Shown: positions 6,356-29,724 of the stretch, piece by piece
Layout: every line of letters begins with the position of its first letter
How positions within the stretch are numbered: position 1 is the stretch's first letter
From: Candidatus Cloacimonadota bacterium
GTDB lineage: Bacteria; Cloacimonadota; Cloacimonadia; Cloacimonadales; Cloacimonadaceae
Assembly: GCA_029565595.1 (NCBI GenBank)
Contig: JAKQNV010000037.1
Coordinates: 1-33,088 of the forward strand
Direction: 5' to 3'
DNA: 33,088 nucleotides
The notes under the pieces: generated by a model
The model's input: the letters and a program-made list of their open reading frames with translations, nothing else
Told to the model about the DNA's origin: nothing
The model's database searches: none
Translations under genes and position numbers: made by a program

Positions 6356-6458
6356 GTTATATTCCTTACTGGCTAAGGGTTTATCCCCATTTGCCCGCGT
6401 TATGGAATCTTGGATCCCGGAGTGACATTTTTCCCATTTTTTCGCCATCCTCCCGCCT

Positions 6459-6529
6459 ATCAATACGGGATCAATACGGGATCAATACGGATGAAACCCG
6501 TATTGATCCCGTATTGATCCCGTATTGAT
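6459..6529. repeat. 71-nt element E1: three 11-nt ATCAATACGGG units, 5-nt centre, three inverted CCCGTATTGAT units
   Basis: Direct reading: 32-bp perfect inverted repeat with a 7-nt loop (ATGAAAC). Confidence 0.95.
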
Positions 6530-6619
6530 CGCCAGGAAGGTCAAAGAAAAGAGAAAATGTTTTATAGGTTGGGCAGCCGTGGGAAGCAAGGGCCGGGGCT
6601 GGCCCGATATCGGAAAGGC

Positions 6620-15615: not shown

Positions 15616-15741
15616 GGTATTGGGGCGGAATAGCCTTTCTTTTTTTTGTTTGTTTTTTGGTATTCCCACTGTCCGGAATCCTCCAGCAGAGTGGGGAAAT
15701 CCCTGAAATCACCACCCTTTCGCCCTAGTATGCAGGCGTTT

Positions 15742-15812
15742 ATCAAGTCATTATCAAGCCTTAATCAAGTCTTAATAATTAACGCTTGATTAAGGCTTGA
15801 CTAAGAAGTGAT
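15742..15812. repeat. 71-nt element E3: ATCAAGTCATT/ATCAAGCCTTA/ATCAAGTCTTA, 5-nt centre, inverted units
   Basis: Direct reading: inner 16-bp perfect inverted repeat TCAAGCCTTAATCAAG/CTTGATTAAGGCTTGA; three 11-nt units per arm, outermost degenerate. Confidence 0.8.
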
Positions 15813-15828
15813 CAAGGCTTGGACGCAA

Positions 15829-15975
15829 GGGTGCTTGGGCACCAGCAACGGAATGGCTTGTGTTGCAAACGGAAAAGGAATAAGATTGTCATTGCCCCAA
15901 GATCTTCCTGCGGAACAATTCGGTGTGCAGGAAGGTCAGTCGAAATTGCCATTCCAGAGCACCGTAAAAGCACCC
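15829..15975. other. Long-range imperfect inverted repeat / structured intergenic region
   Basis: GGGTGCTT-13-GGAATGGC (15829-15857) inverted as GCCATTCC-12-AAGCACCC (15948-15975); nested GATCTTCCTGC/GCAGGAAGGTC (15901-15911/15927-15937). Confidence 0.5.
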
Positions 15976-26715: not shown

Positions 26716-26786
26716 ATCATTACGGGATCAATACGGGATCAATACGGATAAAACCCGTAATGATCCCGTATTGATCCCGTAATGAT
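26716..26786. repeat. 71-nt element E2, second copy of the ATCAATACGGG-unit family
   Basis: ATCATTACGGG ATCAATACGGG ATCAATACGG-ATAAAAC-CCGTAATGAT CCCGTATTGAT CCCGTAATGAT; 32-bp stem with one mismatch, loop ATAAAAC. Confidence 0.95.
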
Positions 26787-26953: not shown

Positions 26954-29146
26954 ATGACAGTGCATACAAAGCTGCGGATGGAAAATCCCCATCTGCGGAA
27001 TTGGTTGCTCAGCCGGGAAAACGTTGGCTGGGTCAGCCTTTCGGACGCCGTGCAAGCGACCTGGCGAACGCTTGGGTTCAAGTGCGGCCTGGAAATCCAT
27101 CAGCAGCTCAAAACGGATAAAAAACTCTTTTGCCGCTGCGCCGCGGGCATCTATCACGATTTTGACGATTATGACGCCGAAGTCGTGCGCCACATGCGGC
27201 CGACGCTTTCCGAACTTGGCGAGTACGACGGCACCGCGTTGATGGAATTCAAAACGCGAAAAAAGATCGTCTACCGCATCAAAAACGACAGCGCCTGCAC
27301 CTATGAAGTGGACGACACCCCGCCGTTTCCGCTCAATCGCGAGGCGCTGGACCAGGCCATGCGGATCGCGCTTCTTCTGAAAATGAAGATCGTCGGCGAG
27401 CTGCATATCACGCGCAAACAGTACTTGGACGGCAGCATCCCCACGGGTTTTCAGAGGACCACGATCCTGGGCATCGAGGGCGCATTTCCCATCTCCACCA
27501 AAACAATCCGAGTCATCCAGTTTTCCGTCGAGGAAGACAGCTGCCGCGAGGTTTGCGATATCCGACATACGCGCGTTTATTACGCCGACCGTTTGGGCAT
27601 GCCGCTCATCGAAACCGTCACCTATCCGGACATGCTGACCCCCTGGGAGGCGGCCGAAGCGGCGCAAAACATTCGCTTTATCGCCCGCAGTTCTGGATTG
27701 GTGAGGGTTGGCATAGGCGCCGCGCGCGAGGACGTCAACGTTTCCATCGATGGCGGCACGCGGATCGAGATCAAGGGCGTGGCACACATCGCCTGGATCC
27801 CCAAACTCACGCACAACGAGGCTTTCCGGCAAAAGTCGCTGCTGCTGATCCGGGATGAATTGGCAGCGCGGAAAATCGACCCCGCTTCCTGGAAAATCCG
27901 CTATACATTGCTGGATCCTGCCGACTGGCGCCACATTCCGCTCCTGAAAAAAGCCTCTGCGGAAGGCTGGAAACTTGTTGCGGTCAATCTGCCCGGATTC
28001 TCTGGGATCCTGAGTTTCTTCAACCAACCTGGGCGTAGCTTTGCCGATGAAATTTCCGACCGCCTGAAAGTCATTCCCTGCCTGGAAAAACCGAATATGC
28101 TCCACTCCGAACAAATTGATTTTTCCCTGCTGGAGCCGAGCAAGGAACGAGATTCGGTTTCTGCAAATGACACCACACTATCAAATGATGTCATTCCGGC
28201 GCCGGGGTCCTCGACAGACAGCTTGCTGGCTGGTGGGGTGGATCAGACTGGAATCCAGGTCTTTTCTGGATCCCGGAACAAGTCCGGGATGACAGCTCCG
28301 GAATTTGCTGACAGCGTTTGGGACAAGGTCCGCAAAGAACTCAAAGCGACTTCTGAAGACTCGCAGATCGTGTTCTGGGCACCCGATGAGGACATAAAAA
28401 CCGCCCTTGAAACGATCTCCGAACGCTGCCTGCTGGCGTTTAAGGGCGTTCCCAACGAAACCAGAAAATCCCTGCCGGATGGCATCACCCTGTTTGAACG
28501 TGTTTTGCCGGGTGCGGACCGCATGTATCCGGATACCGATTCGGCGCCGATCCCGATCGCTGAAGCCCAGATCGAGGCCGCGCGGGTGGAACTGCCCCTC
28601 GGATTGGACCAAAGGCTGGAGCAGCTGGCGCAGTGGGGCATCCCGTCCGATGCCTACACTTATCTGCTGCGTAATAATTTAATGCCCACGGTGGAAGATC
28701 TTTCCAGCAAATATCAGATCGCTCCGAAGCGTCTGGCGCTGTATTTCGCGCATCTGCTCAAAAACCTGCAGGGCAAGGATCCGCTGCCCTTCGATCCGCA
28801 GCGCGTCGAGGACCTGCTCATCTATATCCGCAAAAAGAAGCTGGCTCTGGACATCCTGCCCGAGATGCTGAAAGTGCTTTTTGCCAATCCCAATATGCAG
28901 TTCTCCTCCGTGCTGGCCGTTCTGAACTACAAAGAGATCACGGTCCGCGAAATACTGGCGGAGATCCCGCTTCTGCAACAAATGTGGGCGCGGGTGAAAA
29001 CCAACGGCCTGAAGCGGCCTGACGCCCTCAACACCTGGATGATGGGGCGCCTCCGTTATCTTGCCTTGGGCAATATGCCGCTGGCTGAACTGCGGCAGGC
29101 TGTGGAAAAAGAACTGTCCACGAATTATACGAATTCCACTAATTAA
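26954..29146 (+). CDS. gatE: Glu-tRNA(Gln) amidotransferase subunit E (archaeal-type GatE)
   Basis: 'FKCGLEIHQQLKTDKKLFCRCA', 'RPTLSELGEYDGTALMEF', 'DDTPPFPLNREALDQA', 'DGSIPTGFQRTTILG', 'DRLGMPLIETVTYPDM', 'REDVNVSIDGGTRIEIKGV', 'LPGADRMYPDTDSAPIPI'; C-terminal tail-domain helices. Start uncertain. Confidence 0.92.
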   Translation: MTVHTKLRMENPHLRNWLLSRENVGWVSLSDAVQATWRTLGFKCGLEIHQQLKTDKKLFCRCAAGIYHDFDDYDAEVVRHMRPTLSELGEYDGTALMEFKTRKKIVYRIKNDSACTYEVDDTPPFPLNREALDQAMRIALLLKMKIVGELHITRKQYLDGSIPTGFQRTTILGIEGAFPISTKTIRVIQFSVEEDSCREVCDIRHTRVYYADRLGMPLIETVTYPDMLTPWEAAEAAQNIRFIARSSGLVRVGIGAAREDVNVSIDGGTRIEIKGVAHIAWIPKLTHNEAFRQKSLLLIRDELAARKIDPASWKIRYTLLDPADWRHIPLLKKASAEGWKLVAVNLPGFSGILSFFNQPGRSFADEISDRLKVIPCLEKPNMLHSEQIDFSLLEPSKERDSVSANDTTLSNDVIPAPGSSTDSLLAGGVDQTGIQVFSGSRNKSGMTAPEFADSVWDKVRKELKATSEDSQIVFWAPDEDIKTALETISERCLLAFKGVPNETRKSLPDGITLFERVLPGADRMYPDTDSAPIPIAEAQIEAARVELPLGLDQRLEQLAQWGIPSDAYTYLLRNNLMPTVEDLSSKYQIAPKRLALYFAHLLKNLQGKDPLPFDPQRVEDLLIYIRKKKLALDILPEMLKVLFANPNMQFSSVLAVLNYKEITVREILAEIPLLQQMWARVKTNGLKRPDALNTWMMGRLRYLALGNMPLAELRQAVEKELSTNYTNSTN
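28189..28294. repeat. Palindromic repeat element inserted in frame within gatE
   Basis: Termini TGTCATTCCGG...CCGGGATGACA (10/11 inverted match), nested GGAATCCAG/CTGGATCC; reads in frame as VIPAPGSSTDSLLAGGVDQTGIQVFSGSRNKSGMT. Confidence 0.7.
29115..29144 (-). repeat. AATTCGTG-type repeat, inverted copy at the gatE 3' end
   Basis: Reverse complement AATTAGTGGAATTCGTATAATTCGTGGACA closely matches 29567-29597. Confidence 0.8.
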
Positions 29147-29175: not shown

Positions 29176-29559
29176 ATGGATTCAAATCAAGAGCTGCTGT
29201 ACAAAGACGAGTGCTACAAGATCGTGGGTGCCTGCATGGAAGTGCACAGCAATTTGGGATGTGGTTTTCTAGAACCTGTTTATCAAGAAGCGCTAGCCCT
29301 TGAACTTCAGCAGAGAGGGATTCCTTTTGAGAAAGAGAAAGAATTTGAGATCAAATACAAGGGATTTGTTATACCGAAGACCTATAAAGTGGACTTCCTC
29401 TGCTACGAACACATAATAGTTGAATTGAAAGCACTCAGCCAACTAACCAGCGATCATATAGCTCAGGTCCTCAACTACCTGAAAGCCTCCCAATTGAAAC
29501 TAGGTCTTCTAGTAAACTTTGGTATCAGCAGCCTTCAGCACGAACGTATAATCTTGTAA
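29176..29559 (+). CDS. GxxExxY family protein (PD-(D/E)XK-like)
   Basis: 'GCGFLEPVYQEALALEL', 'YKVDFLCYEHIIVELKAL', 'QVLNYLKASQLKLGLLVNFG'. Track start is 29158. Confidence 0.9.
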   Translation: MDSNQELLYKDECYKIVGACMEVHSNLGCGFLEPVYQEALALELQQRGIPFEKEKEFEIKYKGFVIPKTYKVDFLCYEHIIVELKALSQLTSDHIAQVLNYLKASQLKLGLLVNFGISSLQHERIIL

Positions 29560-29566
29560 ACCTTTA

Positions 29567-29617
29567 AATTCGTGTGAATTCGTGTAATTCGTGGACAGCC
29601 TAACCCATGCTTAACCT
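29567..29617 (+). repeat. AATTCGTG-type repeat copy A, extending into a duplicate of the gatD start region
   Basis: Ungapped match to 29674-29724, about 44/51 identical by eye. Confidence 0.85.
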
Positions 29618-29673
29618 GCGTAACGTAGCATGCCAATACCACTGATTGTGCTTTAGATCTCTTAAATCCTATT

Positions 29674-29724
29674 AATTCGTGTGAATTCGTGAAATTAGTG
29701 GACAGATCAAACCATGCTTGACCT
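29674..29724 (+). repeat. AATTCGTG-type repeat copy B, including the gatD start codon
   Basis: AATTCGTGTGAATTCGTGAAATTAGTGGACAGATCAAACCATGCTTGACCT. Confidence 0.85.

Follow-up and report, generated by a model that had tools for sequence, protein, structure and literature searches.

The hairpin at positions 6459-6529, referred to here as E1, is one copy of a dispersed palindromic repeat family of ~105 bp, which we name F1. E1 lies in a stretch of 33,088 nucleotides from a Candidatus Cloacimonadota bacterium (the window). The reading that we hold to be probable is that F1 is non-autonomous mobile DNA, REPIN- or MITE-like, serving as a landing pad for IS elements, although no enzyme could be linked to its mobilisation. 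F1 is ordinary in kind, being a dispersed palindromic repeat and an IS target; it is unusual in build, with 11-nt modules, families unrelated in sequence and concerted change at orthologous sites. The preliminary description had listed a non-autonomous element among the candidate roles, and this proposal is supported by copies that are dispersed, all intergenic, lineage-specific and homogenised.

The left arm of E1 reads ATCAATACGGG twice followed by ATCAATACGG, and the right arm is its exact reverse complement; re-reading the sequence confirmed the coordinates and letters of the 3+3 array of 11-nt units and its perfect 32-bp hairpin. Perfect arms of this length are far beyond chance: the longest in the window is 32 bp, compared with 8-10 bp in eight mononucleotide shuffles. 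The degenerate outer units, ~17 bp on each side of the stem, are part of the element. Table 1 lists the features of the window together with the related families. The preliminary description treated E1 as a single copy; it was exact for E1 itself and missed the F1 copy at 26716-26786, the F2 relative at 15723-15831 and the outer units. Elsewhere in the window, positions 29558-29724 hold two copies of ~60 nt (83% identical) of a different repeat with ATTCGTGTGAATTCGTG and ATTCGTGGACAG motifs, and an inverted piece, CTGTCCACGAATTATACGAATTC, is found at 29114-29136, 440 nt upstream of them.

Table 1. Features of the window and families built of 11-nt units.
Feature	Position in window	Strand	Basis	Description
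E1 left degenerate outer unit	6442..6458	.	end consensus	family motif RAGRGCSR, read outward; other copies have the IS3-family left end on such a side, 11 nt beyond the stem
E1 left arm (F1 copy)	6459..6490	.	sequence, inverted repeat	three 11-nt units, the third of 10 nt
E1 loop	6491..6497	.	sequence, RNA fold	7 nt, ATGAAAC
E1 right arm	6498..6529	.	sequence, inverted repeat	three inverted units, perfect complement of left arm
E1 right degenerate outer unit	6530..6546	.	end consensus	
Degraded F2 copy	15723..15831	.		11-nt units of TTAATCAAG type, imperfect hairpin
Second F1 copy	26716..26786	.		3+3 units with some A/T mispairs; RNB-domain gene and GatB_N-domain gene on either side
Family F2				TTAATCAAGNC units
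Family F3				GCGGGAAGTN; about 22-27 copies in G003, intergenic save one
Family F4				CCTTAGTATAA; one locus, in G013
Family F5				TAGACAAGTGA; at least 12 sites in G007
Family F6				ATATGGGAANN; about ten or more sites in each of G021 and G031

In a search of E1's own genome, the 71-bp pattern of F1 was found at 38 distinct places with up to three mismatches, and the reversed control gave none; a 22-bp piece of F1 gave 79 forward and 78 reverse matches. The copy number is therefore at least 38 in this genome and at least 42 in the relative G003, counts that rest on pattern searches and, for G003, on 1.95 Mb of sequence. F1 units are present in 9 of 50 genomes of the bacterial family, spread over five genera. 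With the linker bases left free in the search, F1 is abundant in five of the genus's 13 genomes; it also occurs in four further genera, of which one (G024) has just two matches. Across 85,488 species genomes the exact pattern occurs only in Cloacimonadota MAGs and in one 1.2-kb contig labelled Omnitrophota (L053, JAKQKX010000077.1), which holds an F1 hairpin of G003 type and two tandem decayed IS ends and is probably a Cloacimonadota contig placed in the wrong bin. Phage and plasmid records gave no F1 match, and the papers searched included none on repeats in Cloacimonadota. The preliminary description had allowed that the array might be absent from every other locus and related genome, or that an assembly error had collapsed or duplicated its units. 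The dispersed copies clearly contradict the first; the second does not hold either, because independent assemblies of several species show the same structure and the one-contig assembly G021 has the same architecture with other units. One F1 copy, with its 40-bp flanks, is identical between E1's genome and G012 (L036 and L039), while tyrS differs by ~21% between the two, a pattern that reflects either recent transfer or shared contamination.

Conservation of F1 runs ~17 bp beyond the stem on each side and then ends: core identity within genomes is 95% and 98%, and the flanks decay past this point. The ends are of two types. About one copy in three has its core in the opposite orientation to the ends, and the loop may likewise be reversed with respect to the stem mispairs. 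Pairing in G003 extends into the outer unit, so that the arms reach 43-46 bp. Arms without any mismatch, as first described, hold for E1 and are no rule for the family: in other copies A.A and T.T mispairs are frequent at pairs 5 and 27 of the stem, which correspond to the fifth base of units one and three, and pair 27 is mispaired in 33 of 44 F1 copies of G003. Among 98 copies, F1 showed no flanking target-site duplication for k = 2-9, matches being no more frequent than in shuffled pairs.

Every F1 copy analysed in E1's genome and G003 is intergenic and none lies within a gene, with gene boundaries taken from simple codon-usage gene calls. The copies in E1's genome, like E1 itself, are mostly located between co-directional genes (three divergent, three convergent). 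The 33 G003 copies with both neighbours known comprise 13 tandem, 11 convergent and 9 divergent contexts, a mix close to what large intergenic spaces offer. This placement, with its nine divergent copies, speaks against the idea that F1 acts through a long RNA hairpin, as a transcription terminator or mRNA 3'-end stabiliser, for which one could cite the very stable RNA fold of E1 (-67.2 kcal/mol, z = -12.9) and its co-directional neighbours. F1 has no T-tract, the nearest gene is usually 60-450 bp away, and the arrangement that marks an intrinsic terminator (hairpin plus T-tract just past a stop codon) was not found. On the transcribed strand there is no G.U preference, A.C mispairs (12) outnumbering G.U pairs (3), and loop orientation is mixed. 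We regard such a function as highly improbable, and on the same counts, loops and divergent contexts the long dsRNA hairpin proposed earlier gains no support.

The position upstream of tyrS given in the preliminary description is correct, but the link is incidental: none of 12 congeneric genomes has the hairpin in front of tyrS, while the promoter-like TTGACA box of tyrS is kept. Regulation of tyrS was rejected on these grounds. CRISPR and Rfam families gave no match, and Rfam covariance models found nothing over threshold in the window except a tRNA.

Next, the copies were compared between species. Five F1 sites are common to E1's genome and G003 on at least one flank. The flanks at these sites are 67-75% identical or unalignable, and the core is intact in both genomes; the linkers are GGG in E1's genome versus GGT or GGA in G003, complementary on both arms. 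The same two-arm linker switch was found at another site, shared by G010 and G003, with flanks of 80-87% identity. Among eight copies from five genomes, two-sided changes occur in 8 of 34 stem pairs and 98% of cells pair, with a covariation score of 0.202 versus 0.071 for shuffled data (0 of 500); copies within one genome are not independent observations. We concluded that F1 evolves in concert, orthologous sites switching to the genome-specific version with both arms changing together. Linker bases vary among the units of one element and agree over the copies of one genome (GGT then GGA in G003), so copying from a master appears to explain the pattern better than selection acting repeatedly for a single binding site. 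The concerted pattern could also result from long-range gene conversion alone.

The linker pattern bears equally on the possibility that F1 is a functional array of the host, in which a chromosomal protein with a role in regulation or in organising the nucleoid would bind the 11-nt units along one helical face, and gene conversion plus selection would keep the copies alike. The F1 core is far better conserved than its flanks, F1 sites are kept between species whose intergenic DNA is unalignable, and the 11-nt register is common to unrelated families, all of which such an array would explain. A uniform binding rule does not predict GGT followed by GGA, which fits master copying; moreover, families are absent or replaced in close relatives, and the tyrS site of F1 is not conserved. 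A host array is in our view unlikely. F1 copies turn over between species. Counting against mobility, a truly recent F1 insertion with a clean empty site was not found, and two of three sites without F1 in G003 hold an F3-type hairpin in the same intergenic space.

IS elements adjoin F1 in a fixed arrangement. The IS beside F1 encodes an HTH_Tnp_1-like OrfA (just below the Pfam cut-off) and an rve-domain OrfB, with an A-rich shift site between them. All 11 of its left ends in four genomes of three genera lie exactly 11 nt outside an F1-type stem, a count from which a decayed double IS end on L053, near an F1 hairpin and not at the 11-nt spacing, was left out. Left ends of two related ISs lie 20 nt from F5 (twice) and adjoin F6, different ISs pairing with the different hairpin families F1, F5 and F6. 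Right ends never adjoin these hairpins; one right end next to a different 11-nt array (L099) may be an exception. The trinucleotides preceding left ends in G003 (CGA, GGT, GGC) are found again on other contigs, where CGA follows a right end twice and GGT and GGC once each, and ACG recurs likewise at left and right junctions in E1's genome, the pairing of junctions across contigs having been read by eye; in G021 the duplication is TAC, on a single contig. The same insertion position in independent IS copies and a target duplication, by which a target repeat of an IS3-family element is recognised, were thus both found at F1. We concluded that IS3-family elements target F1: they insert at a point 8 nt beyond the stem, duplicate 3 bp and always have the orfA-side end toward the hairpin. 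The 3-nt junction matches denote insertion beside a pre-existing hairpin; F1 as a part of the IS was ruled out on this basis.

Could F1 instead be a MITE that belongs to the IS3-family element beside it and is mobilised by the OrfAB transposase of that element? The constant 11-nt spacing and the pairing of different ISs with F1, F5 and F6 would be expected, and TGT is enriched at the same offset in solo F1 copies. The 3-bp duplications and single fixed orientation point to an IS that arrived next to a hairpin already in place. In addition, F1 has no inward terminal repeats of IS type, and orfA was not detected in the F1-rich genomes G010 and G012, both incomplete assemblies. Movement by OrfAB is accordingly very unlikely. 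MITEs such as RUP, ERIC and Correia are ~100-bp non-autonomous palindromic intergenic elements present in tens of copies, and F1 is like them in these respects; unlike them, F1 showed no target-site duplication, its likeness to the termini of a possible parent transposon is limited to a weak similarity of some solo ends to the IS tip, and its arms consist of tandem 11-mers.

The use of F1 as a target resembles the behaviour of the REP-targeting IS3-family elements IS1397, ISKpn1 and ISPsy8, which insert sequence-selectively at intergenic palindromes with one IS type per repeat type (PMC1525189). It differs from theirs in that every insertion seen lies at a single exact position beyond the stem, always in the same orientation, and in that several hairpin types with no sequence relationship, all built of 11-nt units, serve as targets.

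F1 is repetitive, extragenic and palindromic, as REPs are by definition. It shares with REPs and REPINs, which are associated with RAYTs, the short, intergenic, many-copy and lineage-specific hairpin palindromes, the replacement of sequence classes between relatives and the insertion of IS elements into the repeats (PMC3116915; PMC3733652). A REP unit is 20-40 bp long with a GTAG or CGTC tag at one end (PMC3733652). Neither the base of the F1 stem nor the consensus of 64-88 ends shows such a tag, and F1-type stems are 32-46 bp of tandem 11-nt units, not two short REPs. A REP/REPIN system proper would have a Y1 (HUH) RAYT transposase that recognises the single-stranded hairpin and copies it to new sites. 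Y1 genes are the only genes for hairpin-DNA transposases that were found, 11-nt hairpins lie within ~1.5 kb of them in G000, G003, G007 and G010, and both the lack of target duplication, as expected of Y1 enzymes, and the conserved mispairs of the F1 stem are compatible with such a system. The distribution is less so: two genomes carrying F2, G004 (95% complete) and G009 (93%), gave no PF01797 match, and orthologous Y1 genes lie beside F1 in G010 and G007, beside F2 in G000 and without any hairpin in G001. The RAYT beside F1 in G003 and G010 is flanked by its own, different CCGGATGAATCCGG repeats, and the repeats at the G000-type Y1 gene are CCCTACGGG. We consider a REP/REPIN system with a Y1 enzyme unlikely; the proximity of some Y1 genes had looked promising, but a cognate RAYT for F1 and F2 became doubtful, given the closer repeats of other types around Y1 genes and the two F2 genomes with no Y1 match.

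Two further observations concern the Y1 genes themselves. IS200-like Y1 genes at L083:1045-1420 and L084:75-301 are preceded by many short palindromes of GAGTCCCGTAGGGACGGCAT type, probably their own REPs. A 211-aa RAYT with an MPNHVH motif (L100:815-1150 and 1835-2065; L098), 98% identical between G003 and G010, is surrounded by CACCGGATGAATCCGGTGTTCCG repeat arrays, and F1 lies immediately beyond them.

At least five further families, F2-F6, are unrelated in sequence and follow the same 11-nt-unit palindromic plan (Table 1). All use the 11-nt register, and the six families have three or four units per arm. F1 and F2 are largely mutually exclusive within the genus, E1's genome holding both. 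Of 47 F3 ends, about half have AGGGC at a distance of 50-52 nt from the centre (background for A[AG]GGC of 4% in windows of the size searched), and a RAGRGC-like motif also occurs at the ends of F1, F2 and F5; this comparison of end motifs was made after the data had been seen and is given moderate weight. Tandem 11-mers of CTGATCCTAAG beside an IS right-end-like sequence (L099:2190-2232, G007:C48) are a possible seventh family. The register is real and general across families, and the units might form a protein-binding array or a cruciform, as first proposed. We put forward only tentatively that F1-F6 make up a single superfamily of palindromes that replicate, with swappable 11-nt cores, an outer RAGGGCSG motif and an unrecognised hairpin-copying machinery that needs the exact register, in which families would succeed one another at the same sites and each would be parasitised by its own IS3-type element.

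For F1 as non-autonomous mobile DNA, the following scheme may be suggested. New copies, or the conversion of old ones, would derive from a donor hairpin whose single-stranded or cruciform form is probably copied by a candidate enzyme acting in trans, and the 11-nt units would be contact sites of this enzyme or of another protein. Intrastrand template switching, which is established at quasi-palindromes in E. coli, would keep the arms complementary and flip the loop, and some of the homogenisation may come from gene conversion between copies.

Bacteria commonly carry short palindromic repeats, and how these spread and how their identity persists is poorly understood. Here an uncultured phylum presents at least six sequence-unrelated families with one architecture, concerted evolution and, for F1, F5 and F6, an IS3-type partner. 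The copying mechanism is testable, since any candidate enzyme must account for the 11-nt register. The IS/hairpin pairs are ready-made specificity switches, and they add a clear example, from the IS3 family, of the known tendency of IS elements to hide in extragenic palindromes.
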